Made by a program: the position numbers and the translations under genes. Below the pieces are notes generated by a model. It searched no databases. It saw nothing but the letters and a program-made list of their open reading frames with translations, and was not told the DNA's origin. Below, in pieces: positions 24,621 through 62,216 of a DNA stretch of 64,000 nt. The stretch's first letter is position 1. Each line of letters begins with the position of its first letter. The stretch is from Runella sp. SP2 (GTDB lineage: Bacteria; Bacteroidota; Bacteroidia; Cytophagales; Spirosomataceae): positions 930,001-994,000 of the forward strand of contig NZ_CP031030.1 in the NCBI RefSeq assembly GCF_003711225.1. The letters are read 5' to 3'.

Positions 24621-24687
24621 TTTGATAGCAAACCTTCGCCGCAGCGAGCAGCTCAGGCAAAGCCAGGCGCACAAGTTTGCTATCAAA
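24621..24687. repeat. GATAGCAAA structured repeat, copy A
   Basis: TTTGATAGCAAAC (24621-24633) and GTTTGCTATCAAA (24675-24687) are perfect 13-base inverted arms around a 41-base core. The core holds GCAGCGAGC and AAAGCCAGG, shared with the other copies. The core runs in the opposite direction relative to the downstream gene compared with copies B and C. The start codon of the next gene lies 62 bases after the right arm. Confidence 0.75.
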
Positions 24688-24748
24688 AAAATATCATCTA
24701 CCTCATTTGTCACACCGACGAAGGAGGTGCCTAACCAACCCAATTTTT

Positions 24749-25018
24749 ATGAAAATAAAACACTTAGCAAACCTAATGAAGAGCGCTGATGGTGGCTTTA
24801 TCGTAATCACTTTAAAGCAGGCTGACACCAACAACATCGGTTCCATCTTTGGTTCTTCAAACCTAGACTTCGACACGGTCACCAGCATTCTCGAAGAAAT
24901 AGTCCAAGAACGCAAAGCAAGAATTCGCTCTCAACAAGCCCTAAAACTGCTTGAAAGTTACGACACTATCCAACCGATTGCTGGTTATTTGGAGCCGCGT
25001 ATGCTCAACAAGCCCTAA
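24749..25018 (+). CDS. Hypothetical protein after repeat copy A (89 aa)
   Basis: An upstream in-frame start at 24677 lies inside the repeat, so the ATG at 24749 (MKIKHLANLMKSADGG) is preferred. The product is a small alpha/beta protein (FIVITLKQADTNNIGSIFGS) with a helical end. I recognise no family. After its stop, a partial duplication of its own 3' end (the CAACAAGCCCTAAAACTGCTTGAA segment, second copy from 25005) runs into repeat copy B. Confidence 0.55.
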   Translation: MKIKHLANLMKSADGGFIVITLKQADTNNIGSIFGSSNLDFDTVTSILEEIVQERKARIRSQQALKLLESYDTIQPIAGYLEPRMLNKP

Positions 25019-25128
25019 AACTGCTTGAACGTTACGGCACCTTAAAAGAAGCTGAACCGTAAAGCAAGAACTCGCACCCAACAACTTCTAAAACCTTATT
25101 TCCCTAAACTAGACATCAAAAAACCTAA

Positions 25129-25269
25129 TTGATAGCAAATTCGCGTTCCTGGCTTAGTGGCCACAGCTGTCGGCCGACAAAATTTGCTATCAAAAAAACT
25201 TCTTACGCACTCCATCAGCGCCAGCTCTGGCGCACCATCGCTAAACTACAATGTAAAAATGATAGCAAA
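25129..25269. repeat. GATAGCAAA structured repeat, copy B
   Basis: TTGATAGCAAATT (25129-25141) and AATTTGCTATCAA (25181-25193) are inverted arms around a core containing CCTGGCTTAG and the palindrome TGTCGGCCGACA. Then come a short A-run, CTCCATCA, a hairpin GCGCCA-GCTC-TGGCGC (about 25219-25234), and a third unit TGATAGCAAA (25260-25269) in direct orientation. That third unit contains the start of the next gene. Confidence 0.8.
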
Positions 25270-25573
25270 CGAAAAAGAGTTTCGTACAATAACCTTACGT
25301 GGGTTAGACGAAAAGCCCGAAATCGTGGCCATTATGAACAAGGTCATGAAAACGCATGGACTCAAGACCGGTCAGTCGGTCATTGAGCGTATTATCATCG
25401 ACTACGAAGAACTGCAAAATGGCCTTGCCGCTGCCAAGCGAGAACTCCAAAACCAAAAAACGCATTTTGAGCGCAATTCAAAATCGTTAGCTGAAGAACT
25501 TGAAGGCTATCGAAAAATAGTCAAGGATGCCCAAAATGCTTTTAATCAAATCATGACCCTTTCCATCAAATAA
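25259..25573 (+). CDS. Small coiled-coil protein starting inside repeat copy B (104 aa)
   Basis: The ATG at 25259 is fused to the third repeat unit, so the protein begins MIANEKEFRTITLRGL. Longer frames reaching back to 25157 would only translate the repeat. Residues 5-50 (GLDEKPEIVAIMNKVMKTHG, then QSVIERII) resemble a short DNA-binding or ribbon-helix type segment. The rest is a long coiled coil. The function is unknown. If the RNA arms TTTGCTATC and GATAGCAAA pair, the start codon would be hidden (inference). Confidence 0.6.
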   Translation: MIANEKEFRTITLRGLDEKPEIVAIMNKVMKTHGLKTGQSVIERIIIDYEELQNGLAAAKRELQNQKTHFERNSKSLAEELEGYRKIVKDAQNAFNQIMTLSIK

Positions 25574-25589
25574 TAAACCAACCTCCATT

Positions 25590-26048
25590 ATGAACACACA
25601 ACACGCGTTGATCCTGAGCCTGATTCTATTGGTAGCCATCGGCGTCATCTTATTTTTTATTCGTTTATACCTCAAGCGGAGAAAAAAGCCAATATCCAAG
25701 CCTCATTATAAAGACTACCCCGAGTACCCCGACAGCACCCCTGCGGCCACTCACATTTCTAATGTATATCAGCGCAGCCGTTCACATTTCCCCTCAGTAA
25801 CTGATTACAGTCAGTTTCAGCATAGTAGTTTAGACAACCCAACACCTAAGGCCGATGACATGTTTGATGCCTTCAAGTACAGCAGTAGCACTTTTGACAG
25901 TCCATTATTTGGTGGTGGCGATTTTGGTGGCGGTGGTGCTGGCGACAGCTACTCCTCTGACTCAGGCTCATCCGACAGTAGTTCATGGTCTGATTCCAGC
26001 TCATCAGATAGCTCCTCTGATAGTAGCAGCTCTTCATGGTCTGATTAA
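25590..26048 (+). CDS. Membrane-anchored Ser/Asp-rich protein (152 aa)
   Basis: Residues 7-28 form one transmembrane helix (LILSLILLVAIGVILFFI) followed by a basic stop-transfer (RLYLKRRKK). The middle is Pro/Tyr/Ser-rich. From about residue 108 the protein becomes GGGDFGGGGAGDSY and then a Ser/Asp low-complexity tail that ends SSSSSWSD. The tail is likely disordered and strongly acidic. A Gly-Gly then Ser-rich end is seen in some DUF-type small membrane proteins, but I assign no family. Confidence 0.65.
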   Translation: MNTQHALILSLILLVAIGVILFFIRLYLKRRKKPISKPHYKDYPEYPDSTPAATHISNVYQRSRSHFPSVTDYSQFQHSSLDNPTPKADDMFDAFKYSSSTFDSPLFGGGDFGGGGAGDSYSSDSGSSDSSSWSDSSSSDSSSDSSSSSWSD

Positions 26049-26068
26049 TAATATAAGCCAACATCACA

Positions 26069-26257
26069 ATGATTACCACTACTACTTATTCCTGGGCAGA
26101 CCTTGAAGATGGTACATGCCGCAGCTGCGGTGAAGAGACAGACGTTGTCATCGATGATGGCCGCTGCCCTGACTGTATCGAAGAGCAAAAGTTCTACGAC
26201 ATGACAATGAAATCTAGCCACAAAACGTCATATCTTAGCGACGAAGATGACCTTTAA
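26069..26257 (+). CDS. Small zinc-ribbon protein (62 aa)
   Basis: CRSCGEETDVVIDDGRCPDC gives two CxxC pairs spaced for one zinc ribbon. The C-terminal tail is acidic. The gene is 20 bases after the Ser/Asp-rich membrane protein and 5 bases before the next gene. It is probably a small regulatory or nucleic-acid-binding early protein. Confidence 0.65.
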   Translation: MITTTTYSWADLEDGTCRSCGEETDVVIDDGRCPDCIEEQKFYDMTMKSSHKTSYLSDEDDL

Positions 26258-26262
26258 CCACT

Positions 26263-26490
26263 ATGCATCATTTCGACATAATCCGTGAGCGGCTTCGAAC
26301 CGCCTTCCCCAAACCTGCCATCCGAGACGTTCACAGCCACATCTTGGAAGTAAACTTTCAGATGGCCACGGGCAATTACCTTGTGCACTATTTTGGCTCC
26401 GACAATACCTACAGTCTCGAATACGGCGGTGCAATGGTTCTCAATACCCCCGACCCCGACGAAATCGCCGACTTTATGCTAATCAAATAA
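26263..26490 (+). CDS. Hypothetical early protein (75 aa)
   Basis: A small alpha/beta protein (FDIIRERLRTAFPKPAIRDV, YLVHYFGSDNTYSLEYGG) of no recognised family. It starts 5 bases after the zinc-ribbon gene and ends 4 bases before the next start. Confidence 0.55.
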   Translation: MHHFDIIRERLRTAFPKPAIRDVHSHILEVNFQMATGNYLVHYFGSDNTYSLEYGGAMVLNTPDPDEIADFMLIK

Positions 26491-26494
26491 ATGT

Positions 26495-26761
26495 ATGAAA
26501 CTTACTTGGACGTTCTATCCACGAAACCAATGCGCCGTATCGCTTGAGGTACGTTACCTTGCTGAGTTAGATGATTTTAAGTTACCAAGTGGTGGTTTTC
26601 TACTTCAGGAAGAAAATATTGCCGTTGTGGATTTAAAGACCTACTGGCACTTCAACTCGGCCTCGGTCGAAGAGCGCCGCCATGCTTTCCAAAAACTCAC
26701 AAGACTTGTTAAGCATTCTGCGGTCAGAATAGAGGGGCAAATTATACGACTATTGCAGTAA
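26495..26761 (+). CDS. Hypothetical early protein (88 aa)
   Basis: A small soluble protein beginning MKLTWTFYPRNQCAVSLEVR, with a helical C-terminal half containing ERRHAFQKLTRLVKHSAVRI. No family is recognised. It is part of the same tightly packed rightward unit. Confidence 0.55.
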   Translation: MKLTWTFYPRNQCAVSLEVRYLAELDDFKLPSGGFLLQEENIAVVDLKTYWHFNSASVEERRHAFQKLTRLVKHSAVRIEGQIIRLLQ

Positions 26762-26810
26762 CCACACTGCTAAATTTCTATCACACAACTTAACTCCCAA
26801 CCTTTACAAG

Positions 26811-27164
26811 ATGCAAATCCACGAACTAAAAGTCCATAAAAATTATGTAAACCCACTGCTATCAGGAGCCAAGACATTCGAGGTAAGGCGAAACGATAGA
26901 GACTTTCAAGTGGGAGATATTCTTATCATGCGCCCCTACGATGAGAAGAAACAGAAATACGTATCTGAAGAATCTGAATTCTACTACAATGTCACTTATG
27001 TACTTACAGGTGGGAAGTATGGGATAGAAGAAGGCTACTGTATTCTTGGTATTCAGCCCAATCCTGCCATAAACCGATTTGGATTATTGCAATGGAGGTA
27101 CGTACCGACTCCTTTAACAAAGCCAACAAAGCATCCTCTCGAAATTTTGGACGATACAAAATGA
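26811..27164 (+). CDS. DUF3850 (ASCH/PUA-like) protein
   Basis: This 117-aa protein opens MQIHELKVHKNYVNPLLSGA and continues KTFEVRRNDRDFQVGDILIM, then GYCILGIQP. That is the DUF3850 pattern, a member of the ASCH/PUA-like RNA-binding fold. These proteins are frequent in phages and are thought to bind RNA or modified nucleotides; their exact role is unknown. It is the last gene of the early operon and is followed by a terminator. Confidence 0.85.
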   Translation: MQIHELKVHKNYVNPLLSGAKTFEVRRNDRDFQVGDILIMRPYDEKKQKYVSEESEFYYNVTYVLTGGKYGIEEGYCILGIQPNPAINRFGLLQWRYVPTPLTKPTKHPLEILDDTK

Positions 27165-27194
27165 TTGGTAGCTTTGTACAAACTTTACTTCTCC

Positions 27195-27235
27195 AAAAAC
27201 ACCTTCTAAGTTTGGCGACCGACGGGGGTGTTTTT
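27195..27235. terminator. Terminator between early operon and methylase
   Basis: AAAAACACC (27195-27203) pairs with GGTGTTTTT (27227-27235) around a 23-base loop. T and A runs suit both directions, between convergent genes. Confidence 0.65.
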
Positions 27236-27245
27236 CTTTTAGTAG

Positions 27246-28052
27246 TTACTTGCTCACCTCATAATTCCACGTTAAGCACTCAATCTTCTTTTTGGTCTTT
27301 TCGCGTCGGCCATCCACGGCAAGGGTCTTTTCGTGTTGTTCGGCATTCCAGCCATGTTGGGCTATGTAGTCAGCAAGAATAGACTCAGGGTAGCTACTAA
27401 GCAAAAACTTACCTTTCATCGAAGCACACGCATCCAGCAGCTTTCGGAAGTCATCGTCCGAATACCCCGCGTAGTGGCCTTGGTTGGCGCTCACGTAGGG
27501 AGGGTCCAGATAAAAGAAAGTATCGGGCGTATCGTACGCCTTTATCACCTTCAGTACATCATACGACTCAATCGTCACCCGCTTCATTCGGTCTTTGTAG
27601 GCGTCCGTAAACCCATTCTTTTTATTGAAAAGCTTCAGGGCGCACTTACCTGCTCGGTCGTAGCCAAAACCCGCCCCAATCATCGATCCAAAACTCATGT
27701 TGGTCTGAACCCACACGCTCCATGCCAGAGCTAAGGCATCTTGAATGTCCTCTTTGCTTGCGTCGTATTGCTCCCACGCTTCAGCGTGCTGGGCACGTGA
27801 GTGAAACGTCTCATCAATTTTGTGCTGTAAGTCCTCAAAGTCGTATTTGAGGGCGCGGTAAAAAGTGGTAAGGCGGTGATTGATGTCGTTGACTACTTCG
27901 GCCTCGCTCGGCTCCTTGGCAAAAAAAACGGCCCCGCCACCAAAAAACGGCTCAACATACAGCGTGTGTGCAGGGATTTTTGGCAAGATGGCTGGGAGCA
28001 TCATTTGTTTTCCACCGTAATAGGTGATGGGAGTTTTTAAGAGTTTTTTCAT
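27246..28052 (-). CDS. D12-class N6-adenine DNA methyltransferase (Dam-like)
   Basis: This 268-aa enzyme methylates adenine in DNA using S-adenosylmethionine. YYGGKQMMLPAI and EPFFGGGAVFF (residues about 34-44) form the cofactor site, and FFYLDPPYVS contains the catalytic DPPY (183-186). The order and length match the Dam/M.MboIIA class. No restriction endonuclease gene is nearby, so it is probably an orphan methylase that protects phage DNA or controls transcription. It is leftward and lies just beyond the late-operon terminator. Confidence 0.93.
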   Translation of the reverse strand: MKKLLKTPITYYGGKQMMLPAILPKIPAHTLYVEPFFGGGAVFFAKEPSEAEVVNDINHRLTTFYRALKYDFEDLQHKIDETFHSRAQHAEAWEQYDASKEDIQDALALAWSVWVQTNMSFGSMIGAGFGYDRAGKCALKLFNKKNGFTDAYKDRMKRVTIESYDVLKVIKAYDTPDTFFYLDPPYVSANQGHYAGYSDDDFRKLLDACASMKGKFLLSSYPESILADYIAQHGWNAEQHEKTLAVDGRREKTKKKIECLTWNYEVSK

Positions 28053-28083
28053 AACGTTGATAATTTGATATGTTTGTTAAGCG

Positions 28084-28109: not shown

Positions 28110-28119
28110 ATCTGGGCGC

Positions 28120-40833: not shown

Positions 40834-43800
40834 TTAAGATTTTAATAAGATATATTTAGTGACGCCGCCAATATTTATTGGAAGAACTTCGCTGGAGATA
40901 GTTGGTGTAGCCCCTAATGTTTGTGTTGGGAATAAGCTGAAATGCTGAGAATTCATGTATATCCCCCCGTTAAATTGGGCAGTGGTATTGAAGACAGTTG
41001 GGTACTCAAACACATTGTAGGAATATATTGTATTCCCTACTCCAGCTGTCTTGTCAAGGTAGTTGCCCCCGCCGCTACTAGGCAGATTGACATTAGCATA
41101 GTATTGGCCACCATCTCTTAGTTGAATACCAACCGTAAGTGTAGAGCCAGCAATACTTAGCCAGTGTGCAGCATAGCCTTTTGGGTCGCTTTCGCTGGTA
41201 ATAAATGGAGGCTTATTAGAGACATTATCCCAATGTACCGCACCGCCAGCTCCACTGGTGTTGAGTTGGTATCTGGTATAGACATCTCCCCAAGTGGGGC
41301 GGTTACCAAGCTCACTTGCAAGGTTGATAATGTCTCCAATGGGGTGTCCGTGGCCTGTGTAGGCAAAATCAGGTCTGTTGGTTACATTATCCCAGTGTAC
41401 TGCACCGCCAGCTCCACTGGTGTTAAGTTGGTATCTGGTATATACATCTCCCCAAGTGGGGCGGTTGCCAAGCTCACTTGCAAGGTTGATAATGTCTCCA
41501 ATGGGGTGTCCGTGGCCTGCATAGGCAAAATCAGGTTTGTTGGTAACGTTATTCCAATGTACCGCACCGCCAGCTCCACTGGTGTTGAGTTGGTATCTGG
41601 TATATACATCTCCCCAAGTAGGGCGGTTGCCAAGCTCGCTTGCAAGGTTGATAATGTCTCCAATGGGATGTGAGTGTAATACAGGCGCATACAATGATGT
41701 GCTTATTGTTAGTACGTTACCTCCATTGTCTGTGCCCAATAGTGCTACTGGCGTTCCTGACCACGATGAAGCTGAGTAATAAGTGTTAAAGCGTACCTTA
41801 CCATTAGAGTTTAGCTCCATTATATAGGTAGCGCCGCCGCCGCTTCTGAAATAAATAGGTGATGCTGTACCTGCGTCGATGTTAAGAGTTCCTGTTGCCC
41901 TTATTGCCCGCCCAGAGGGAATATAGATTGATACCGCCGCTAAATCTCCGTCTGCATAGAGCGCCCCATCTATTAACCGAAGACGATACCCAGCAGCATC
42001 ATTTCCCCCGACCGCAAGGTTGCCAAAAATGTTCGTGTTGCCACCAACATTAAAAAGGCCAGTTGTGTTTGCACTTGCAATGTTGACGACAGTTCCGTTA
42101 TCAAATATTCTGCTATTGCCGATTATGCCAGGAGCTGTGAATTTTCCAAGATAGTTGACATCTCCAGTGCCTGATAATTTTGCGTTCCAGCTACTAATAT
42201 TTTCAGTAGTTATTGCCTTGACATGGCTCGGCACGGTGGGGTCGGTCTCGGTATAGCTTGTCAAATACCCTGCGAGCGCGTGGTTTCCCCATCCGTAAGC
42301 TGAATTCCAGTTCGCAATGTTAGTGCTACTAATGGTCTTCACCCAACTCGGTACAGTTGGGTCAGTTTCGGCAGGGAAGGCTATTTCTGTATTAGAAAGA
42401 CTAATTACCCTTCCATAGGTGTCCACGTTGATAACTGGTACTTGCGTAGTAGAACCTGCCGAGAGTGTTGTGGCATTGACGGCAATGAGGTCAACGACCC
42501 ACGAACGGTCGGCGGCGAGCGTCTGAGAGCCACCGCTTACGGCGACTCGCCCAGCAGTTCCAGAAACCTGCAATGCACGTGCAAGTGGTGCGTAGAGACC
42601 CGCGTGGTTTCCCCAGCTGTAGGCAGCATTCCAGTTGCTTATCTGAGTACTGGTGATGGCCTTCACCCAAGATGGCACAGTTGGGTCGGTTTCCGTATAG
42701 CTTGTCAAATACCCAGCGAGTGCGTGGTTTCCCCAGCTGTAGGCGGCATTCCAGTTGCTTACTTGAGTACTGGTGATGGCCTTCACCCAAGATGGTACAG
42801 TTGGGTCAGTTTCGGCAGGGAAAGCAATGGCGGCATTGGAGAGACTAGTTACCCTTCCATAGGTGTCCACGTTGATAACGGGTACTTGCGTAGTAGAACC
42901 TGCCGAGAGTGTTGTGGCATTGACGGCAATGAGGTCAACGACCCACGAACGGTCGGCGGCGAGCGTCTGAGAGCCACCGCTTACGGCGACTCGCCCAGCA
43001 GTTCCAGAAACCTGCAATGCACGTGCAAGTGGTGCGTAGAGACCCGCGTGGTTTCCCCAGCTGTAAGCGGCATTCCAGTTGCTTACTTGAGTACTGGTGA
43101 TGGCCTTCACCCAAGATGGTACAGTTGGGTCAGTTTCGGCAGGGAAAGCAATGGAGGCATTGGAGAGACTAGTTACCCTTCCATAGGTGTCCACGTTGAT
43201 AACGGGTACTTGCGTAGTAGAACCTGCTGAGAGTGTTGTGGCATTGACGGCAATGAGGTCAACGACCCACGAACGGTCGGCGGCGAGCGTCTGAGAGCCA
43301 CCGCTTACGGCTACTCGCCCAGCAGTTCCAGAAACCTGCAATGCCCGCGAAAGTGGTGCGTAGAGACCTGCGTGGTTTCCCCAGCTGTAGGCAGCATTCC
43401 AGTTGCTTATCTGAGTACTGGTGATGGCTTTGACCCACGATGGTACGGTGGGGTCGGTCTCGGTAAAGCCAGTTAAGTAGCCAGCAAGCGCGTGGTTTCC
43501 CCATCCATAAGCTGAGTTCCAGTTAGAAATTAGAGTACTATTAAGTCCTAAATTTCCAGAAACTGCATCATATTCTAATGGGTATTGTGGCGCAAAAGGA
43601 ACTTCATTGCCAGTCCAAGAAACTATTTTTCCTGAGGGCGAATCCGTAATTTGGATGCCAAACCCTTCGATAAGATTAAATTTCTCTTCAGCTTTCCACG
43701 CCTGATATACCTCCACAAACTGATACCCACTTCCAATTCCACGTTTTACATGGGTTGGTACTTTTACCTTGCCATCAGCAAGCATATTCCCAGCGCTTGC

Positions 43801-44511
43801 CGTGTACCAGCTTGTCCAAATCTTTGACTCATTGCGTTCGCGGGTATATAGGGCTTCTGAATTGTCGGGATAGAAATACTGGAAAATTACACAACCCGCT
43901 ATTTCATTTTTCAACACCCCCTTGTTTTCGTTCGTCGGTGGTGCGAAAAGACTACTTCCAGAAAACTCTATATGTATATCACCGTTGGTAATCGTAGTGT
44001 TAAAATTGATGTCACCGACCCGTTTCCCTCGGTTCAATTTCGCGTATTGACGTACGTAATCAGCGGCAAGCGTACGAAGTTTGGTGTCTTTAGCAAGCCC
44101 TTTGTTAAAGGCACTTGGTAGGGCAATTTCACCAAACTGAAAAGTCTCATCATTGCTGACGTAATAGTTCCAACTTTCTGCAACACCATTGATAACAATT
44201 AACTCACCACAACGAGATTTGATACAGTTTTCATCGCGCATTTCGTCAGCGACGAAGCGAATTTCCTTGGTAGTACCAGCTGATACTTTAACAAATAAAT
44301 ATCCCTTCGATGGGAGATTAGGTGCGTTTTCTACGTTTGCCCAGTCTTCTCCATCGTGCCGATAAGAACCTATCTTCAGTTCTGTAACATCGAATGGAGC
44401 TGCAATCGTCCCATGGTCAACGTACGCAAAATCCCCAACGTCTGAACGAAGGTCTCGTTCCGAGGTTTGGTCTGACTGGGGGTTGATTGCTATGTATTTC
44501 AAGTCCGACAT
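40834..44511 (-). CDS. Repeat-rich tail fibre (1225 aa)
   Basis: This is the longest fibre gene. A globular N-terminal part (about 1-320) is followed by three near-identical units of 108 aa (ETDPTVPSWVKAITSTQ...SWGNHAGLYAPL...DTYGRVTSLSN), the last preceded by an extra partial unit. After a middle domain come three units of 54 aa (HPIGDIINLASELGNRPTWG...TSGAGGAVHW). The C-terminus (about 60 residues) has no intramolecular chaperone domain that I recognise. It would form a trimeric host-recognition fibre. The repeats are almost identical at the DNA level, so length variation by recombination is likely. Confidence 0.85.
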   Translation of the reverse strand: MSDLKYIAINPQSDQTSERDLRSDVGDFAYVDHGTIAAPFDVTELKIGSYRHDGEDWANVENAPNLPSKGYLFVKVSAGTTKEIRFVADEMRDENCIKSRCGELIVINGVAESWNYYVSNDETFQFGEIALPSAFNKGLAKDTKLRTLAADYVRQYAKLNRGKRVGDINFNTTITNGDIHIEFSGSSLFAPPTNENKGVLKNEIAGCVIFQYFYPDNSEALYTRERNESKIWTSWYTASAGNMLADGKVKVPTHVKRGIGSGYQFVEVYQAWKAEEKFNLIEGFGIQITDSPSGKIVSWTGNEVPFAPQYPLEYDAVSGNLGLNSTLISNWNSAYGWGNHALAGYLTGFTETDPTVPSWVKAITSTQISNWNAAYSWGNHAGLYAPLSRALQVSGTAGRVAVSGGSQTLAADRSWVVDLIAVNATTLSAGSTTQVPVINVDTYGRVTSLSNASIAFPAETDPTVPSWVKAITSTQVSNWNAAYSWGNHAGLYAPLARALQVSGTAGRVAVSGGSQTLAADRSWVVDLIAVNATTLSAGSTTQVPVINVDTYGRVTSLSNAAIAFPAETDPTVPSWVKAITSTQVSNWNAAYSWGNHALAGYLTSYTETDPTVPSWVKAITSTQISNWNAAYSWGNHAGLYAPLARALQVSGTAGRVAVSGGSQTLAADRSWVVDLIAVNATTLSAGSTTQVPVINVDTYGRVISLSNTEIAFPAETDPTVPSWVKTISSTNIANWNSAYGWGNHALAGYLTSYTETDPTVPSHVKAITTENISSWNAKLSGTGDVNYLGKFTAPGIIGNSRIFDNGTVVNIASANTTGLFNVGGNTNIFGNLAVGGNDAAGYRLRLIDGALYADGDLAAVSIYIPSGRAIRATGTLNIDAGTASPIYFRSGGGATYIMELNSNGKVRFNTYYSASSWSGTPVALLGTDNGGNVLTISTSLYAPVLHSHPIGDIINLASELGNRPTWGDVYTRYQLNTSGAGGAVHWNNVTNKPDFAYAGHGHPIGDIINLASELGNRPTWGDVYTRYQLNTSGAGGAVHWDNVTNRPDFAYTGHGHPIGDIINLASELGNRPTWGDVYTRYQLNTSGAGGAVHWDNVSNKPPFITSESDPKGYAAHWLSIAGSTLTVGIQLRDGGQYYANVNLPSSGGGNYLDKTAGVGNTIYSYNVFEYPTVFNTTAQFNGGIYMNSQHFSLFPTQTLGATPTISSEVLPINIGGVTKYILLKS
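41196..41680 (-). repeat. Three tandem 162-bp units in the fibre gene
   Basis: The units encode the 54-aa block starting HPIGDIINLASELG. The phrase GATAATGTCTCCAATGGG recurs with 162-base spacing. Units differ at only a few bases. Confidence 0.85.
42366..43450 (-). repeat. Three tandem 324-bp units in the fibre gene
   Basis: Each unit encodes the 108-aa block with QVSGTAGRVAVSGGSQTLAA. Long stretches are identical between units. The spacing from the 42.8 kb to the 43.1 kb copy is about 322-324 bases, and an extra 41-codon part unit lies between two copies near 42.7 kb. Confidence 0.85.
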
Positions 44512-47097: not shown

Positions 47098-47595
47098 CTA
47101 TTCGCAGTGAAAAGGGTCTCTCCAAAATCTAATTTCAATTGTATAGCGATACCCCCAAGCTCCGTTGAGAACCGGGCCAATCCATTCACCCGAAACCCTA
47201 CTCATTACTTGAAGGGGGGTGCATCCATCTTTGATGATTTTTTTCTTTGCCTCTTTTTTTAACCTGCCGATAATTCGTTCAACGGCGGGTTTGGATACGT
47301 CATAAATCACATATTTAGCGTCATTCTTCCCAGCGTTTTTCGCATCGGCAAAATGCAAAACGGCAATACTTGTTCTCAAGGTATCATAAGCCGCCGACTC
47401 GTCACTTACTTCATTGTCAGGAAACTCAAGCACAAGACAAGGCCATCCAAGTGAATTACGAAGGGCGTTAAGGGCTGTTTCAGCATTTTGGGGGTCAGGC
47501 ACAACGCAAAAATTCACCTTAGAATCACCACGTGCTATCGCTCGATCCTCATTTGCGTACTTCTGTAGTGTCTTCTCTAAAAAAGGTAAACTCAT
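47098..47595 (-). CDS. Small tail-type protein after repeat copy C (165 aa)
   Basis: A mixed alpha/beta protein (ETALNALRNSLGWPCLVLEF, YVIYDVSKPAVERIIGRLKK) of no secure family. Its place between neck/tail genes and the tail-tip protein suggests a tail completion or tube-associated role. Its start codon lies directly after the third unit of repeat copy C. Confidence 0.55.
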   Translation of the reverse strand: MSLPFLEKTLQKYANEDRAIARGDSKVNFCVVPDPQNAETALNALRNSLGWPCLVLEFPDNEVSDESAAYDTLRTSIAVLHFADAKNAGKNDAKYVIYDVSKPAVERIIGRLKKEAKKKIIKDGCTPLQVMSRVSGEWIGPVLNGAWGYRYTIEIRFWRDPFHCE

Positions 47596-47739
47596 ACTTT
47601 GCTATCATTTAGAAGTGGAAGTTCAGTGATGGTGCGCCAGAGCTGACGCTGATGGAGTGAGCAAAAAGATTTTTTGATAGCAAAAGTTAGCGCAGCGAGC
47701 TGCGGTACCGAAAGCCAGGAAACAACTTTTGCTATCAAA
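47596..47739. repeat. GATAGCAAA structured repeat, copy C
   Basis: It fills the whole gap between two late genes. In minus-strand order it has TTTGATAGCAAAAGTT, a core with CCTGGCTTTC and GCAGCTCGCTGC, AACTTTTGCTATCAAA, then CTCCATCAGCG and a hairpin ending TGGCGCACC. A third unit TGATAGCAAA follows, with the start ATG of the 165-aa gene two bases later. Arms are at 47673-47688 and 47724-47739, and the third unit is at 47598-47606. Confidence 0.8.
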
Positions 47740-48519
47740 CTACTTATTATTCTGTGGTAGCTGAGATTTAGCCCATTCAAAATCTTTCATTCGGAGATTG
47801 ATGTTACTCATCACCTCATAAAACGAGGTATTTTTGATGGTAGTAAGCTCACTTTGTCGGTGTTCTGCTAACCTTGTGGCTTGCTCAAGCCAGTTTGATT
47901 TTTGTGCTTTCTCACCTTGCTTTGCTTCTTGAAAAGCGTATTTGTATAGCTTTTTAAGGTGCTTTTTCCAGCCTTGATAATTAAGCAAAATAGCCGTTTT
48001 GGTGGCTTTATCCAGCTTTGTAAGCTGCTTTGCCCGCTCATCAACCAGCTTATTGTTGAAATCATGTCGCTTTCCAAACCAGCTTTTAGGTCGATATAAA
48101 ATTGAAATAAATCGGTCAAGCTCCCATTCGTCATGCTTGCTGTAATAACGCTCAAGCATACTTTCAGCAAACATAAATTCTGCAAAAATTAAGTCAGTGA
48201 GGCGTTTATTGGGGCCGTGCCATTTTTGCCAACCGACTTGGATAGAAGGCAACATCCAATCTTTTGGCAAATCGTTGAATTCGCTTAGGTGATGAAAGTA
48301 CCCAATCAGTACGTGCCTTTGTGCCATCGACATTCCAAAATACTCGCGCAGTGGTATTCCCAAAAGAATGACAGGTAATGCCCATGTTTTTTCGGGTTCT
48401 TGCTCGATGATATTGATGGCGCGAATCGTCGCGATGTATTGTTGGGCTGACATTTGCTCCCATGTGTCGGGGCCAGTTCTTACAACTCTTTTGCCTTTGT
48501 AGGTGTACGAAATTTCCAT
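47740..48519 (-). CDS. Hypothetical helical late protein (259 aa)
   Basis: An all-helical soluble protein (MEISYTYKGKRVVRTGPDTW, YIATIRAINIIEQEPEKTWA, RAKQLTKLDKATKTAILLNY). It shares one base with the upstream gene stop/start. It could be a head-tail or tail assembly protein by place. No family is recognised. Confidence 0.55.
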   Translation of the reverse strand: MEISYTYKGKRVVRTGPDTWEQMSAQQYIATIRAINIIEQEPEKTWALPVILLGIPLREYFGMSMAQRHVLIGYFHHLSEFNDLPKDWMLPSIQVGWQKWHGPNKRLTDLIFAEFMFAESMLERYYSKHDEWELDRFISILYRPKSWFGKRHDFNNKLVDERAKQLTKLDKATKTAILLNYQGWKKHLKKLYKYAFQEAKQGEKAQKSNWLEQATRLAEHRQSELTTIKNTSFYEVMSNINLRMKDFEWAKSQLPQNNK

Positions 48520-56472: not shown

Positions 56473-57741
56473 TTAAGCTCCAAAAAGAGCGTCCGCCGCC
56501 TTGTTATGAGGAAGCTCATCCAGGATTTGCTGCGGTGTTTTTTTGCCAGAATCCCCTTCAGCTTTTTGCTCTGAAGCTTTCGGCGTCGGCTTTTCTCCTG
56601 GTTGTTGACCAAGGCGTGTTACTTCAGCTTGCGCATCGTCACGCTCTTTGGTGAGCGTTGTCACCTGAGCTTGCGCGTCATCGCGCTCCTTGGTCAAAGT
56701 CGTTACTTGGGCTTGAGCCGCGTCGCGCTCTTTGGTAAGCGTTGTTACTTGAGCCTGCGCGTCGTCACGCTCTTTGGTGACAGAAGCTAGAGTTGCCTCT
56801 TCCGAAGCACCCTCTTGTGAGCCATGTTTTGACAACAGTGACTTCAATTCACTAATCAGAGACATAGATGTTGATTTACGTTTGGAAGTTTGAAAGCGGT
56901 CGGAGACTTCAGCCAGCACGTCGGCCAAAGTAGAAGTGCCATCTATCAGACCCACCTTTTTGGCTTCATCGGTCATGTAGATAGCACCCTTGAAAGGGTC
57001 ACCAGCTTTTGGATTTAGTTTCCCAGCTCTGGCGGCCTTGATGTCGTTAATGAAGATTTGGTTCGACTGAGTCAGCTCAGCCTTGAGAAGCGTATCGTCC
57101 TTTTTGTCGAATAGGTTTCGCACATCAAGGTTCTTCTCGGTACTTTGGGCGGCATATACTTCGTAGATAGGGAGGCCAATTTTCTCGAAATACTTATTGA
57201 AGTCAGCCAGTACCGCGTAGGTGCCAATGCTACCGACGATGTCATTGGGCTGTGTAGTGTATATCGCATCACTACCAGCAATGTAGTAATAGCCCGCGCT
57301 TGCGGCCAAGTTGTCAACCAGCGATATCACAGGCTTGGCGGGGTTGCTCACCGCCTGAAACACCTCTCTGGTACCGTATGCCATCCCTCCTGGGCTATCA
57401 ATCAGGATCACACTGCCCACAAAACGCGTATCGCCGTAGATAGAGTTGAGCAACCCAACATACTCTTTTGAGCCTGTAGAATACCAGCTAGAGTACTTGC
57501 TTATCGGTCCTCGTATGGCAATCACTGCTACCGAGCCGTTGGGGGCATTTTTTAGGTCAGTTGTCGTCCCGCTTTGAAAATGTACTGCTGCGGCCTCAAT
57601 AATCTTTGGAGGTCGCTCACTTTTTTCGTTGGCGGCATTCATAAGCCGCACCATTTCAGTAGAGTTAGCCAGCGCCCATTGCTGGTCTATCCACCATTGC
57701 CCACTCGTGAGCGCCAATACGGTCTGTTGCAGTTCATTCAT
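56473..57741 (-). CDS. Head maturation protease (S49/SppA type) fused to a scaffold-like coil
   Basis: Residues 65-250 form a ClpP/SppA-like serine protease: SVILIDSPGGMAYGTREVFQ, then NLAASAGYYYIAGSDA, with the nucleophile Ser148. A Lys in LLKAELTQSNQIFINDIKAA is the likely general base. The C-terminal 110 residues contain four 14-aa repeats of the type TTLTKERDDAQAQV, a coiled coil that would act as an internal scaffold and be removed at maturation. It lies just upstream of the capsid gene. Confidence 0.88.
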   Translation of the reverse strand: MNELQQTVLALTSGQWWIDQQWALANSTEMVRLMNAANEKSERPPKIIEAAAVHFQSGTTTDLKNAPNGSVAVIAIRGPISKYSSWYSTGSKEYVGLLNSIYGDTRFVGSVILIDSPGGMAYGTREVFQAVSNPAKPVISLVDNLAASAGYYYIAGSDAIYTTQPNDIVGSIGTYAVLADFNKYFEKIGLPIYEVYAAQSTEKNLDVRNLFDKKDDTLLKAELTQSNQIFINDIKAARAGKLNPKAGDPFKGAIYMTDEAKKVGLIDGTSTLADVLAEVSDRFQTSKRKSTSMSLISELKSLLSKHGSQEGASEEATLASVTKERDDAQAQVTTLTKERDAAQAQVTTLTKERDDAQAQVTTLTKERDDAQAEVTRLGQQPGEKPTPKASEQKAEGDSGKKTPQQILDELPHNKAADALFGA

Positions 57742-58805: not shown

Positions 58806-58815
58806 AAAAAGTAAG

Positions 58816-58883: not shown

Positions 58884-58914
58884 GTAAAAAAAACACTTTT
58901 TTTTGATAAAATAC

Positions 58915-58945
58915 TTGTTACATAACGTAACAAAATGTACCTTTA
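58915..58945 (+). promoter_or_regulatory. Promoter with embedded operator for the rightward control genes
   Basis: TTG (58915-58917), 20 bases, then TACCTTTA (58938-58945) fits the Bacteroidota promoter pattern with one mismatch. The palindrome TTGTTAC-ATAAC-GTAACAA (58915-58933) covers the -33 side and spacer. A regulator bound there would block this promoter. It would also touch a divergent leftward promoter that could drive the late operon. Confidence 0.6.
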
Positions 58946-58969
58946 CATCATCAAACAAATCAATAACAC

Positions 58970-59146
58970 ATGGACATAAAAAAACAAATTGAATTGGCTA
59001 TCGCGAGGCTCGAACGCGAAAACGCCCAACTTGCCAAAGTCTTAAACTCCTTTTCAGAGAATTATACCGAAGAGCAAATCAATCAAGTTCTTGATGAAAT
59101 TCTGAAAAACAAAGAACTAATCGAAAAACTAAAAAGGGGGCTATAG
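58970..59146 (+). CDS. Small helical protein (58 aa)
   Basis: MDIKKQIELAIARLERENAQ continues as one charged amphipathic helix ending LIEKLKRGL. It is 25 bases downstream of the -7 box of the promoter at 58915-58945 and 15 bases before the HTH gene. It may be a partner of that regulator. Too short to assign a family. Confidence 0.55.
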   Translation: MDIKKQIELAIARLERENAQLAKVLNSFSENYTEEQINQVLDEILKNKELIEKLKRGL

Positions 59147-59161
59147 CCCCCACCCACTTCT

Positions 59162-59440
59162 ATGAATATCGAAGCACAAAACCAACTAGCCGCCGCCTTG
59201 GCAGCCTCTCGTGAGGCTCGCCAAAGTGCGATTGCCCTCCTCATGTCTGAAGGAGAAACCATTGAACTCTCAGACTGGGTAACTATAAAAGAGTACGCCA
59301 AACGTTTCAATTTGGAGAGTACAAACGTGGTCTCTAACTGGATTAAGCGGGGCATTATTCCTGCCGAAAATGTTAGGGAAATTCCTGAGCTAAATAATAT
59401 AAAACTCATCAAGGCCGTGCCTTACATGGAGCCTGCCTAG
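59162..59440 (+). CDS. HTH DNA-binding protein (MerR/excisionase-like)
   Basis: Residues about 35-75 (LSDWVTIKEYAKRFNLESTN, VVSNWIKRGIIPAENVREIP) form the helix-turn-helix and wing of the MerR/excisionase type. The N-terminal third is an Ala-rich helix. The 92-aa size and its place near the integrase and late promoter suit either an excisionase-type directionality factor or a regulator of the palindrome at 58915-58933. A strong terminator follows. Confidence 0.7.
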   Translation: MNIEAQNQLAAALAASREARQSAIALLMSEGETIELSDWVTIKEYAKRFNLESTNVVSNWIKRGIIPAENVREIPELNNIKLIKAVPYMEPA

Positions 59441-59472
59441 TAGTTATTTAAAAGATTTGTTTGATAATCCCG

Positions 59473-59506
59473 AAACCCCGTTGGTCTTACCGACGGGGTT
59501 TTTTAT
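59473..59506 (+). terminator. Terminator after the HTH gene
   Basis: AAACCCCGTTGG (59473-59484) pairs with CCGACGGGGTTT (59490-59501, one G-T pair) around TCTTA, followed by T bases. It stops the rightward control transcript before the convergent amidoligase operon. Confidence 0.85.
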
Positions 59507-59730
59507 TGTGGTTGCAACTCAGGCGTGTTAGAAGCGAATGGTTGCCGTAAAGATAAAGCGTGGGTTCGTAGTGCTTCTTCATAAATTCGCTCAAGATATT
59601 CTTGGTGCATAGTAGCAGGAATGTGCTTTATGAGCAATGTATCGTTTGCTAAAATAAACTCCTTGAGCTGTTCCACATTCATTTTCATAAGCCTTGACAG
59701 CTCCTTTTTTGTAAGTTTCTTCTTTTCCAT
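59503..59730 (-). CDS. Third protein of the amidoligase operon (75 aa)
   Basis: A helical Lys-rich start (MEKKKLTKKELSRLMKMNVE) leads to a short second helix pair. It is transcribed 29 bases after the 78-aa gene and is probably the last gene of the amidoligase operon. Family unknown. Confidence 0.55.
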   Translation of the reverse strand: MEKKKLTKKELSRLMKMNVEQLKEFILANDTLLIKHIPATMHQEYLERIYEEALRTHALSLRQPFASNTPELQPQ

Positions 59731-59759
59731 ACCACTACAGTTTTATTTAAAAATGTAAA

Positions 59760-59996
59760 TCAAATACGCTGCCAATACCCAGCCTTTTCCAAGTCAGCCA
59801 CAAAATTTTCGTAGCTGTCGGTTCGTACCTCCCACTCAAGGCCATTGTATTCTCTTACCCGTTCGGCGGTTTCTTTTAGGTATTCCTCCAAAGTCTGTTC
59901 AGCTCCAAAGCGGCTACCATCGCGTAGCGCTTCGAGAAGCAACTGAAGGGAGGTGCCTGTTATCACCTCCCCGTTTCTGTCTTTATATTTTATCAT
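59760..59996 (-). CDS. Second protein of the amidoligase operon (78 aa)
   Basis: The start overlaps the amidoligase stop by 4 bases (ATGA), so translation is coupled. The product (YKDRNGEVITGTSLQLLLEA, LKETAERVREYNGLEWEVRT) is a small acidic protein with one helix pair. It could be a substrate, carrier or partner of the amidoligase. No family is recognised. Confidence 0.6.
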   Translation of the reverse strand: MIKYKDRNGEVITGTSLQLLLEALRDGSRFGAEQTLEEYLKETAERVREYNGLEWEVRTDSYENFVADLEKAGYWQRI

Positions 59997-60901
59997 GCGG
60001 CCAGTTGGTTTTGTCTAGTTACCAAATAGTTATATACTTCTGCCTGATTAAATTTCTTTAGGGTTTCAAAGGTAGTGGTTTCCACTCGCTTAGTTTTTGA
60101 GTACTCTACCAAATTGTGTAAGAAAATCACCCAGTTCGAAATCTTCTTAAATTCAACCGTTCCCGAGTGCTGCCGAAACTCAATCGTGCGATGGCGTTCG
60201 TAAGCCTGCATATTTACTTTGAAATATCGGCTACCAAATCCGCTCGCTATTTTTGAAATGCTATCCGCATTTTCAATTTTCGTTTCATGTCCTCTTAGTG
60301 TCCGTGTATAGCTGTTATTGTTTCCGCGTCGGCTATGTGGCATAAAACTATCAATCGCTTCTTCAAGCTTTGCGTAGTTCAACAAAAGGTTTTTCGTTTG
60401 TTGAAGTCCCATTTGGGTAGCATCAAAATGAATATGTAAACCGCAGGTTTTATTGATTTTTACGTTCAAAGTTTCAAGTACCTCGCATACTTTTTCAAGT
60501 TCGTTCAGCCCGCTCATTCCTTCTAAAATAGGGCTTACCAATTCAAAAGTATTAACCCCCGTCAGGCTTCCGTCCGTTACCAGCTTCCAGTGTCGGCGGG
60601 TGCTATGGTTATACCGTTCAGTTTCGGCGTATATTCCCGCGCTTCGTAGTGCGTTTTCAACTCGCTGCATTTCAACCCCGTAAGCCTCAATCTCCACTCC
60701 AAATTTACGATTGAAAGCTATAAACCGAAACTCTCTCCCGTTTACGTTTTCAGGCCAGTATTTTGCAAACACGTTTTGAACAAATCCGTAGTTCCCGCCA
60801 GTCAAATCAGCCACTTGGCGGCGTGTAAGACCTAGCTCAAGCAGGCGTCTAATCTTCTCCGTTTTTGTAAAATTTGCGCTTAAAATTTCTTGCGTATTCA
60901 T
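59993..60901 (-). CDS. Amidoligase-family protein with N-terminal HTH
   Basis: Amidoligases (glutamine-synthetase-like COOH-NH2 ligases) use ATP to form amide bonds between peptides or small molecules. The family motifs are in order: FGVEIE (67-72), KLVTDGSL (106-113), ELVSP (120-124), CGLHIHFDA (153-161) and TIEFRQHSGT (239-248). Residues 10-48 (TKTEKIRRLLELGLTRRQVA, LTGGNYGFVQNVFAKYW) form a fused helix-turn-helix, which is unusual for an enzyme and suggests DNA binding or self-regulation. It heads a three-gene operon inside the prophage. The substrate is unknown. Confidence 0.85.
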   Translation of the reverse strand: MNTQEILSANFTKTEKIRRLLELGLTRRQVADLTGGNYGFVQNVFAKYWPENVNGREFRFIAFNRKFGVEIEAYGVEMQRVENALRSAGIYAETERYNHSTRRHWKLVTDGSLTGVNTFELVSPILEGMSGLNELEKVCEVLETLNVKINKTCGLHIHFDATQMGLQQTKNLLLNYAKLEEAIDSFMPHSRRGNNNSYTRTLRGHETKIENADSISKIASGFGSRYFKVNMQAYERHRTIEFRQHSGTVEFKKISNWVIFLHNLVEYSKTKRVETTTFETLKKFNQAEVYNYLVTRQNQLAA

Positions 60902-60990
60902 CTGATTATCTGTGCGTTATGTTCGTTTTTGATAGGACAAAACACGCACTTTCCTTCCCGACAAGCAAGTTTATTCGCTAGTTTTTTTAA

Positions 60991-61041
60991 CAAAAATATT
61001 AACATATATTAATGTAATATAAATATATGTTAATATTTTTG
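60991..61041. promoter_or_regulatory. Perfect 19-bp palindrome between divergent genes
   Basis: CAAAAATATTAACATATAT (60991-61009) and ATATATGTTAATATTTTTG (61023-61041) are exact inverted arms around 13 bases. It lies between the divergent amidoligase and recombinase-like genes, 89 bases from the amidoligase start. A dimeric regulator site or cruciform is likely. The HTH of the amidoligase protein is one candidate ligand. Confidence 0.65.
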
Positions 61042-61076
61042 AAGCTGATTTACACTTGGCAGAGTGCAAATAAAAA

Positions 61077-61102
61077 CCCCATTAGCTGGCAGGCCAATGG
61101 GG
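61077..61102. other. Hairpin in the leader of the recombinase-like gene
   Basis: CCCCATT (61077-61083) pairs with AATGGGG (61096-61102) around 12 bases. There is no T-run, so it is not a usual terminator. It stands 37 bases before the ATG at 61139 and could control translation. Confidence 0.4.
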
Positions 61103-61138
61103 CAAAAACGTAACCATAAATCCTAAATTACAATTACG

Positions 61139-61852
61139 ATGCAAGTTAACCAGCAACATCTATTTTTGCCCTATTTAAGGGGAAAAACTACCGCCATGCT
61201 CGATGATAACTCATATTCCGAAACCTACATCCGTCGGCATTTAAGGCTTCATTCACTCTTAGCAGAGTTTTGCCCCAACGACCCGCTTGATTTATCGCAA
61301 ATCAACAACGACTTCATGGCCTCCTTTGAGAGTTTTTTAATGGAAAAATACCGTAACAGCAGCGTCGCCACACATTTACGGTTATTCAAAACAGTCCTAA
61401 AGTCACTGTGCGACGAAGTGCAGCTTCCTTGTCCAGTCACTCTCCAACTAAGCGCCCACACGGCTGTCAAGCATTACACTACCTATGCCGATATTATTGC
61501 CCTTTTGAGCCTGAAGCTCTCATGGTCACAAGAACATGTTCGAGATAAATACGTAATTCAATGTTATACAGGTCTCGACTTCCATCTTCTCAATCAAATC
61601 CTTACCAATCCTCACAGGTATCATATCAAAAAGGATAACAAAGACTTCTTTTTTTACAATCTAAAATTCATCCCATTACCACCTACTGTGGTAGCTATCT
61701 TAGACCGACGCAGTTGGCAATTTCGGCCATCCTCACTACAGTATTACAACCGTATCATCAAAGAGATTGCAAGTCAGGCAGGGCTACAGGGGCCTTTCAG
61801 TAGCCGCTCTGCTATTTACTCCTTTGCTGCCAATGCCCTAAACTATGGATAG
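61139..61852 (+). CDS. Recombinase-like protein without catalytic tyrosine (237 aa)
   Basis: Residues 30-100 (YIRRHLRLHSLLAEFC, FMASFESFLMEKYRNSSVATHL) match the SAM-like core-binding domain of Bacteroidota integrases. The remaining part resembles a catalytic domain that has lost its key residues. The first Arg position is Asp147 (CYTGLDFHLL), the HxxR His position is Phe220 with Arg223 retained, and the protein ends before the LGH and Tyr motifs. It probably binds DNA only, perhaps as an accessory in integration or control. Confidence 0.65.
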   Translation: MQVNQQHLFLPYLRGKTTAMLDDNSYSETYIRRHLRLHSLLAEFCPNDPLDLSQINNDFMASFESFLMEKYRNSSVATHLRLFKTVLKSLCDEVQLPCPVTLQLSAHTAVKHYTTYADIIALLSLKLSWSQEHVRDKYVIQCYTGLDFHLLNQILTNPHRYHIKKDNKDFFFYNLKFIPLPPTVVAILDRRSWQFRPSSLQYYNRIIKEIASQAGLQGPFSSRSAIYSFAANALNYG

Positions 61853-61886
61853 TATATGCTACATTTGTGCAGTAAATACTAACTTT

Positions 61887-62072
61887 ATGAGCGAACAATC
61901 CACCGAAAAAAAGTACCGGATACTTAAAGCAAAGCTCGACGTAAACGATGACTATTTTGCAAAACTCCTAAAATTCAAAAGCACAGCATCATTCCGAAGT
62001 AGCACTGCACGTGACCGTTTTGTGGAAGCCATTGTCAATTTTTATGAGCACGTCAAAGAGCCATTGGAATAA
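61887..62072 (+). CDS. Small protein after the recombinase-like gene (61 aa)
   Basis: The ATG at 61887 (MSEQSTEKKYRILKAKLDVN) is preferred over the one at 61845 inside the upstream gene. TACATTTG at 61860-61867 is a good -7 box just before it. The product is helical with a SFRSSTARDRFVEAIVNFYE segment, possibly DNA-binding. Repeat copy D begins right after its stop. Confidence 0.55.
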   Translation: MSEQSTEKKYRILKAKLDVNDDYFAKLLKFKSTASFRSSTARDRFVEAIVNFYEHVKEPLE

Positions 62073-62216
62073 TTTTGCTATCGTTTTTCAAATAAAGTCT
62101 ATCACTGGAAGCGCGGCTCTGGCGCTGATGGCGTAGTCATAAAGTTTTTTTGATAGCAAAAGTTGGCGCAGCGAGCTGCGGTACTGAAAGCCAGGAAACA
62201 ACTTTTGCTATCAAAA
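62073..62216. repeat. GATAGCAAA structured repeat, copy D
   Basis: The arms TTTTGATAGCAAAAGTTG (62148-62165) and CAACTTTTGCTATCAAAA (62199-62216) are a perfect 18-base inverted repeat around a core with CGCAGCGAGCTGCG and GCCAGGAAA. To the left lie GGCGCTGATGG and a third unit TTTTGCTATCG (62073-62083). In its own orientation it matches copies B and C, but here no gene start follows; it abuts the end of a convergent gene. Confidence 0.8.

Follow-up and report, generated by a model that had tools for sequence, protein, structure and literature searches.

The repeats in this stretch of Runella sp. SP2 DNA (contig NZ_CP031030.1, positions 930,001 to 994,000; 64,000 nucleotides, hereafter the window) are, with a probability of about 0.7, arrays of a 12-bp phage DNA operator, TTTGATAGCAAA, that spread as small cassettes, with the product of the small gene c1 as the most likely cognate, putative binding protein. 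Such arrays stand in prophages of freshwater bacteria, and a small regulator encoded by the phage very probably binds them. The sites keep quantised spacings in any orientation, they co-occur with c1, and they differ between c1 clades. One array of the window faces empty sites at homologous loci, and arrays are also found on an element that carries no c1.

Site arrays in the window

Allowing up to two mismatches, TTTGATAGCAAA was found 28 times on the two strands of the window, while 100 shuffles gave a mean of 13.7 and a maximum of 24. The repeats are real and their sequences lie where the preliminary description had placed them. Its count of four copies holds, but its unit list was incomplete, because copy A, too, is made up of three. 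The extra unit, AATGATAGCATA, occupies 24566-24577 on the plus strand, 55 bp upstream of the next unit, and it begins on the final base of the TAA stop codon that closes the gene at 24183-24566. In the sequence scan, array A continues with a site at 24621-24632 (plus strand) and a reversed one at 24676-24687 (minus strand), giving the plan > 55 > 55 <, where > and < are the two orientations. Start-to-start spacings are thus 55 and 55 bp in A, and each of B, C and D has one of 55 bp and one of 75 bp.

Array B consists of sites at 25128-25139 (plus), 25183-25194 (reversed, minus) and 25258-25269 (plus), the last of which overlaps the start codon of c1 (25259-25573, plus strand). Array C reads on the minus strand. 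Its site 1 (47728-47739, minus) lies immediately 3' of the stop codon of the gene at 47740-48519, site 2 is at 47673-47684 (plus), and site 3 (47598-47609, minus) ends 2 nt upstream of the start of the gene at 47098-47595. Array D, also read on the minus strand, has site 1 at 62204-62215 (minus), which lies past the 3' end of the integrase gene at 62427-63659 by about 210 bp, and site 2 at 62149-62160 (plus). Its third unit, CGATAGCA at 62074-62085 (minus), is degenerate with an altered core and lies 1 nt past the stop of the gene at 61887-62072. The four arrays are placed around the prophage of the window, and one of them is upstream of c1.

The units are near-palindromes of the form TTTG(A/C)TA(G/T)CAAA, so that the former unit 1 and unit 2 are the same site read in opposite directions. 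All 107 sites of 33 arrays kept the asymmetric core TGATAGCA, and neither of the two symmetric cores that the search also permitted was present among them.

Spacing of the sites

Three whole-genome scans with exact 8-bp cores were performed on 18 genomes in three orientations, allowing spacings of 50-80 bp and counting each place once for palindromic patterns. They gave 126 unit pairs, of which 119 were spaced by 54, 55, 65 or 75 bp. The other seven were at 51, 53, 53, 62, 63, 64 and 64 bp, and no pair fell at 56-61 or 66-74 bp. With the pattern reversed as a control, the scans matched 24, 22 and 4 times, and 47 of these 50 matches came from three genomes (G000, G002 and G003); in the control orientation inspected, the four places belonged to an unrelated interspersed repeat with spacings of 61, 63, 70 and 77 bp.

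By our arithmetic, with a helical repeat of about 10.8 bp, distances of 54/55, 65 and 75 bp amount to 5, 6 and 7 turns, which would put the sites on the same side of the DNA. Orientation is mixed within arrays (71 direct, 33 converging and 22 diverging pairs), and a fixed spacing combined with a changing orientation suggests sites in the DNA that share a face of the helix.

c1 and its relatives

The c1 gene encodes 104 amino acids. In alignments, made without the doubtful locus L085 (no start codon), its N-terminus has by eye a strand-helix-helix pattern followed by a long coiled coil, and c1 therefore looks like a ribbon-helix-helix (RHH) protein, a class assigned from the pattern only. The AlphaFold monomer has helices at residues 20-33 and 35-103 and no strand; a 52-residue piece was likewise modelled strand-less, at low confidence. 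Searches of c1 against Pfam, PDB sequences and, with Foldseek, the PDB gave no RHH match, and the Foldseek search with the c1 model gave no match at all.

In Runella the best E-values of c1 ranged from 4e-39 to 4e-45, and in Flectobacillus from 1e-37 to 3e-38. Among the 16 strong c1 loci (E up to 3.2e-20), 15 had an array no more than about 0.7 kb upstream; the remaining one, L090, is a partial match and has one site nearby. None of the five more distant relatives examined (L081-L084 and L146) had an array that could be recognised in the 600 bp upstream. A search of 390 genomes of the order, family members included, gave three matches outside the family, all weak or doubtful.

The site changes with the protein. 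Ten core classes TGNTANCA were scanned in 43 loci, which had been selected for arrays or c1, and the three classes that had any pair within 130 bp were those found beside c1 relatives. A Flectobacillus clade of c1 paralogues (four loci) has TTTGGTAGCAAA arrays at the gene start. There are 11 such arrays with 18 spacings, 17 at 52-55 bp and one at 64 bp, and some of these (52, 64) are 1-3 bp off the grid. L080, a c1 relative from another genus, has two copies of TTTGTTAGCAAA 54 bp apart and, by hand count, a degenerate third copy 75 bp further on, at the start codon. These clade-specific sites differ by a single base only. The residues expected to contact DNA, following the rule from Arc and MetJ, also differ by clade (T-T-R, I-N-R and T-M-R).

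Distribution of arrays

Runella and Flectobacillus are the two genera in which arrays with this core turned up; one pattern detected them in 9 of 222 genomes of the family. Among 18 Runella and Flectobacillus genomes, all ten with c1 had arrays and all eight without c1 had no match in the three scans (Fisher p = 2e-5, ignoring phylogeny). Across the whole genome of R. limosa (G003) there was a single array, the one at c1, and one additional pair, so that a wide regulon is not a general feature. Many arrays are not positioned ahead of a start codon, and some are inside a structural operon.

Copy C had no match among phage records, and a stricter pattern found nothing in viral contigs. Two viral-contig matches (L030 and L032) were rejected as probable coding coincidences, because by eye related open frames read through both units. 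Matches in Lachnospiraceae (L024 and L028), which have an 81-bp pair, were provisionally judged unrelated. In the open-access literature, judged by title and the opening of the abstract, no paper appears to describe such arrays.

A satellite-like element with an array

One array-bearing element, G012:C14, has no c1. It is 17 kb long and inserted in a tRNA gene, with tRNA-Gln and, at a distance of 17.2 kb, a 42-bp repeat. It carries an integrase (cluster c0, whose member in L065 matches the Pfam integrase), a primase-like gene (DUF5906/DUF3854), an HTH gene and defence-like cargo; no structural gene was recognised among the genes checked. In size, tRNA site, integrase, primase-like gene and cargo it resembles phage satellites (PMC8628076, PMC10111431 and PMC13376191). 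Its mobilisation by a helper is putative. What is new is that its operator array is common to it and to c1-bearing elements of the same genome.

The arrays might instead be where c1 or another binder builds a nucleoprotein complex for a different job, such as the recombination arms of the adjacent tyrosine integrase, plasmid or phage partition (a centromere) or packaging. In L064, L065, L067 and L068 no more than 50 bp separate an array from the 3' end of an integrase gene, and the presence of arrays on the satellite-like element would fit as well. In the text available of PMC9499535, RHH centromere proteins autoregulate and attach to arrays of short asymmetric sites whichever way these point, as with omega of pSM19035, a small RHH protein with consecutive heptads in parS that acts in partition with ParA. 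However, arrays are also found before c1 and within a structural operon, no ParA-like neighbour of c1 was recognised among the genes looked at, and the changes in the site accompany the c1 clades. We consider such a different job unlikely.

Probable spread of the arrays

Several observations suggest that the arrays move. Four homologous loci allowed a judgement and copy C was missing from all of them, 103 bp are shared by C and D at 90% identity, and by eye the Flectobacillus arrays at one orthologous locus differ in their sets of modules. The same observations would be expected of a plain miniature element, MITE-like or IS200-like, served by a transposase in trans and without any regulatory role. 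A plain MITE is nevertheless argued against by the strict spacing and by the restriction of arrays to genomes with c1 among the 18 scanned; it would leave the helical quantisation and the clade-specific sites unexplained. In addition, Flectobacillus genomes have array positions in common, and no target-site duplication was demonstrated.

The edges of the arrays also speak against a plain mobile element. Stop codons lie at the edge (-3 to +1) in 7 of 84 cases compared with 0.8% at random points. Stops within the unit were seen at 15 of 54 '>' edges (28%), against 14.9% expected for a unit placed at random points, a control that accounts for the TGA within the unit. As related arrays were counted separately, the support from the edges is modest. 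We regard a plain mobile element as improbable. The mobile part of the earlier proposal is retained through the empty sites of copy C and the exchange of modules, and its suggestion of both a switch and a mobile element came closest, the arrays probably being regulatory and mobile but as DNA operators rather than RNA.

Predicted RNA folding

Among the candidates in the preliminary description was a switch-like RNA leader, in which pairing of unit 2 with either unit 1 or unit 3 gates translation. This is very improbable, since in 5 of the 9 Runella leaders orthologous to copy B all units are direct (> > >), so that neither the 1:2 nor the 2:3 helix can form as proposed, with the spacing (54/55 and 75 bp) unchanged. 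The other four read > < >, and the overlap of unit 3 with the start codon, which would suit a switch, is kept in all nine. Two groups, R. zeae/MFBS21 and G009, account for the five all-direct leaders. Orientation, and with it the proposed pairing, is therefore not conserved.

In favour of a structured RNA, four of five inverted arrays folded (B, C, D and L059) were more stable than shuffles (z = -2.5 to -3.1; the fifth gave -1.4), while three all-direct leaders gave -2.2, +1.1 and -1.2. The stem also continues past the 12-bp arms in C, D and L059 with changes in step, an extension not kept in L060, L061 and L062. The arms, where compensatory changes had been proposed as a check, are nearly invariant and hence offer no covariation; many arrays stand elsewhere than before a start codon, and at Rfam gathering thresholds the whole window gave tRNA only, with no match to the arrays. 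The GCGCC/GGCGC hairpin that had been noted is clean in B and includes a G-U pair in C, but in D another pairing takes its place.

Proposed mechanism and known systems

On the preferred reading of the repeats as operator arrays, a c1 dimer would sit on each site and cooperate with others along or across the array. Autorepression of c1 through its own leader array would be the simplest case, because the leader of c1 consists of the array, whose last site covers the start codon. Arrays elsewhere in the prophage and on satellite-like elements could place the adjoining genes under c1, in the latter case in trans, and the arrays would spread as small cassettes by duplication and module exchange. 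A more specific version, to which we give somewhat less than even odds, is a regulatory code. Here an RHH-like protein would read strong sites set 5, 6 or 7 turns apart in arrays, perhaps together with weaker ones in the spacers, and build a defined nucleoprotein structure rather than occupy independent operators. The cassettes would travel, satellites without c1 would be wired to the c1 of a prophage in trans, and GATAGC and GGTAGC sites, each with its own c1-type protein, would operate in one host.

The PeSLs of T4-like phages, which Arbiol (2010) and Comeau (2014) are said to have described, are reportedly small non-coding regulatory cassettes through which shuffling occurs in phage genomes, each with an early promoter and a stem-loop. 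The present arrays are likewise small and non-coding, and putatively mobile and regulatory. Unlike PeSLs, they are defined by the site array, and no Bacteroidota promoter consensus was seen at them on inspection by eye. The PeSL work is cited in the available part of PMC4503421.

In the available parts of PMC6550527 and PMC9283540, the L5-type stoperators of cluster A mycobacteriophages are short asymmetric sites of a phage-encoded regulator, scattered through the phage genome in promoters and short intergenic spaces, and also upstream of the regulator's own gene. They lie mostly in one orientation relative to transcription, are bound by a monomer of a two-domain repressor, and co-vary with the regulator among relatives. 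As there, several asymmetric sites are distributed here across a prophage, including upstream of c1, the putative regulator. Stoperators are mostly single sites. The sites described here differ in forming helically phased arrays of mixed orientation with an RHH-like putative regulator.

The small RHH proteins SvtR and AvtR of archaeal viruses recognise imperfect inverted repeats. SvtR binds at several places along the viral genome and is believed to extend from strong sites to weaker ones, as presented in the available part of PMC5569661. Both these systems and omega share with ours arrays of short sites, direct or inverted, theirs overlapping promoters including their own. Strong sites at a fixed spacing of 5, 6 or 7 turns, as here, are not described in the available parts of those sources.

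To our knowledge, gene control in Bacteroidota phages has been little studied. If c1 does bind the arrays, these phages would have a compact regulator that obeys an unusually strict rule of geometry. An array in common with a c1-less, defence-carrying satellite-like element would offer a simple model for sensing a resident prophage, and mobile ready-made operator cassettes could be one route by which phages rewire control with their genes unchanged.

Content of the spacers

Of 104 distinct spacers, 57 were kept for motif counts after dropping those at least 75% identical to one already kept. CCAGG, CAGCTC, GTCGAC and GATATC were strongly enriched relative to shuffles, with uneven placement. 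The test for a motif lattice was exploratory, the motifs having been picked from the same data. In the 75-bp spacer class the lattice was not significant, and in the 54/55 class periods of 9.5-10.25 fitted at least as well as 11. GC content inside the spacers had no 10-11 bp rhythm. AGCT lay mostly at positions 23-28 rather than at 22/32, and generic palindromes were weakly enriched (7.1% compared with 6.25% expected, by our arithmetic).

Repeat units and genomic setting

The window corresponds to 930001-994000 of the main contig of the 7.6-Mb Runella genome. As the preliminary description had it, four repeat copies were found at 24621-24687 (A), 25129-25269 (B), 47596-47739 (C) and 62073-62216 (D), more than expected by chance; a third unit of copy A, at 24566-24577, had been overlooked. 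The units then called 1 and 2 are not separate: because the repeated unit is nearly palindromic, TTTG(A/C)TA(G/T)CAAA, they represent a single site in either orientation. All 107 array sites seen, from 33 arrays, retained the asymmetric core TGATAGCA, and the two symmetric cores permitted by the search were absent among them.

The genes around the arrays are those of a prophage, including integrases, a tail tape measure gene and a head maturation protease gene. Copy C is located within its structural operon and copy D past the integrase gene (62427-63659), about 210 bp from its 3' end. A second, related prophage-like element lies in tandem, parts of 21038-23648 matching 66278-68783 at 85-87% (window numbering). 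The tandem elements were seen at window 17966-23648 and in a locus past the window end (L118), and the matching parts include tRNA-Met. Inside the gene at 40834-44511, region 42277-43544 holds long DNA repeats spaced 324 and 444 bp apart, and the head maturation protease gene contains 42-bp repeats (56618-56825). A short open frame at 61139-61852, whose only match is an integrase SAM-like domain, is possibly an integrase remnant.

Spacing of the sites

A pattern of converging pairs matched 9 of 222 family genomes, from two genera, and the reversed control pattern matched none of the 222. A set of three scans over 18 genomes (13 Runella, 5 Flectobacillus), in which all orientations and start-to-start spacings of 50-80 bp were permitted, gave 126 unit pairs. 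They were spaced 54 bp (n = 45), 55 bp (n = 32), 65 bp (n = 29) or 75 bp (n = 13), with seven pairs off these classes (51, 53, 53, 62, 63, 64 and 64 bp) and none of the 126 at 56-61 or 66-74 bp. Converging pairs were at 54/55 bp in 32 of 33 cases and diverging pairs at 65/75 bp in 18 of 22; among direct pairs every spacing class was represented. The reversed control gave 50 matches in these 18 genomes, 47 of them from only three (G000, G002 and G003). One control orientation was inspected, and its four places were all another interspersed repeat, with spacings of 61, 63, 70 and 77 bp. The geometry of the arrays is very probably helical and unusually strict.

An unrelated interspersed repeat based on GTCAGACGATAGTCAGAC was seen in the host genome (L168, G000:C1:478994-479062) and in R. 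limosa (L167, G003:C9:103136-103220). Two Lachnospiraceae contigs (L024, 7347-7427; L028, 370-450) carry an 81-bp stretch between the same 12-mers, with more GATAGCA copies close by; these are probably unrelated.

c1 as the putative array-binding regulator

Very probably the arrays serve as DNA operators for the phage-encoded regulator c1 (104 amino acids, gene at 25259-25573, plus strand), their putative binding protein. Homologues matching c1 strongly (E up to 3e-17) were found in 11 of 222 genomes and matches at E 0.001 or better in 16. Among the 18 Runella and Flectobacillus genomes, arrays were present in all ten with c1 and in none of the eight without it (Fisher 2e-5, shared ancestry ignored). 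When the strong c1 loci were considered (E up to 3.2e-20), 15 out of 16 had an array within about 0.7 kb upstream, the sole exception, L090, being a partial match.

Divergent c1 relatives have a similar array geometry with a different site. In four loci of Flectobacillus paralogues the site was TTTGGTAGCAAA; at L080, from another genus, TTTGTTAGCAAA occurred twice, 54 bp apart, and a manual count placed a degenerate copy at the start codon, 75 bp further. When ten possible cores TGNTANCA were searched in 43 loci, pairs within 130 bp were found only for the three seen beside c1 and its relatives. The GGTAGC family comprised 11 arrays in the 43 loci, with 17 of 18 spacings at 52-55 bp and one at 64 bp. 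Counting against c1 as the regulator, five more distant relatives (L081-L084 and L146) had no recognisable array within 600 bp upstream.

By the ribbon-helix-helix (RHH) rule for which residues contact DNA, and assuming that c1 is an RHH protein, the predicted contact residues by clade were T-T-R, I-N-R and T-M-R. Also counting against this reading, no profile or fold search confirmed the RHH class. The AlphaFold model of the c1 monomer showed one helix and a second, very long one but lacked the RHH strand, which was likewise absent from a model of a shorter piece. The arrays appear to work like stoperators (distributed phage repressor sites) combined with RHH site arrays, and we do not claim membership of either. 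The one-way orientation of stoperators was looked for here and not found, and c1 is unconfirmed as an RHH protein. Searches of an open-access library yielded no paper that appears to describe these arrays.

The repeats had also been proposed to form an RNA leader, unit 2 pairing with unit 1 or unit 3 in two exclusive folds that gate translation. Leaders of c1 orthologues in nine Runella loci kept three sites, with spacings of 54 or 55 and then 75 bp, the last covering the c1 start codon. The middle site was inverted in four of the nine; in the other five all sites were direct, so neither of the proposed helices can form. These leaders are partly non-independent: L070 and L071 seem almost the same, and R. 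zeae and strain MFBS21 account for four of the five with direct sites throughout. Folding energies agreed in part with a reading other than RNA, and Rfam gave no match for the repeats. On site orientation above all, an RNA switch is very unlikely.

Mobility of the arrays

Array mobility is very probably cassette-like and resembles that of regulatory cassettes which move in T4-like phages. Such cassettes are cited in PMC4503421. For the gene upstream of copy C, 15 homologous loci were fetched, and the window's own and seven others were examined. In the four with a recognisable downstream gene (L153, L154, L156 and L157) the flanking genes overlap or lie a few nucleotides apart and the array is missing, and copy C is therefore best read, from this sequence comparison, as an insertion. 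L155, L158 and L166 could not be judged. Copies C and D have 103 bp in common at 90%, and at one Flectobacillus locus the sets of array modules vary between genomes (by eye). Array edges fell at a stop codon (-3 to +1) in 7 of 84 cases, compared with 0.8% for random points, and a stop within the unit was used at 15 of 54 edges in the '>' orientation, against 14.9% expected.

Arrays in satellite-like elements

In R. zeae (G012, contig 14) a 17.2-kb element is located in tRNA-Gln, 42 bp of sequence from the end of the tRNA being repeated unchanged 17.2 kb away. Between L067 8324 and L133 5764 lie an integrase-family gene (cluster c0), an array, defence-like cargo (a PADLOC TmtA match, a Schlafen-AlbA domain and a C39-like peptidase) and a second array; a DUF5906/DUF3854 (primase-like) gene and an HTH gene are also present. 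In a search of the genome, c1 was located on contigs 17 and 40 and nowhere else; the element on contig 14 therefore bears arrays but no recognised c1. Its counterpart in G011 (L065) has other cargo, an HD-CE/HATPase protein, between its two arrays. By inference, both elements would be satellites on which c1 acts.

In R. limosa, a single direct 55-bp pair (G003:C6:241273-241335) lies about 3 kb beyond a match to the fabD/tRNA-Gln region that the satellite-like element uses.

Motifs in the spacers

Four motifs were enriched in 57 non-redundant spacers, out of 104 distinct: CCAGG (23 spacers against 3.2 expected), CAGCTC (19 against 2.1), GATATC (7 against 0.3) and GTCGAC (6 against 0.2). In the 54/55 class the favoured positions were 10.5 for CCNGG, 22 for GATATC and 30-34 for TCGA, but AGCT was found mainly at 23-28, and CCNGG occurred at 15.5 and 21.5 as well. 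Placement in this class (four motifs, 80 hits) was non-uniform at periods of 10.5-11 (p 0.003-0.008), with p lower still at 9.5-10.25. Since the motifs were picked from these very spacers and the period was left free, the periodicity test is exploratory in all classes. For the 75 class (four motifs, 8 hits) it was not significant, and the GC content of the spacers had no rhythm. The 65 class gave p 0.001-0.004 at periods of 10.5-11 (10 hits), with the sign expected if one more turn brings one more motif position. PMC5569661 proposes spreading for archaeal viral RHH proteins, and strong anchors with intervening weak sites would fit the spreading described there.
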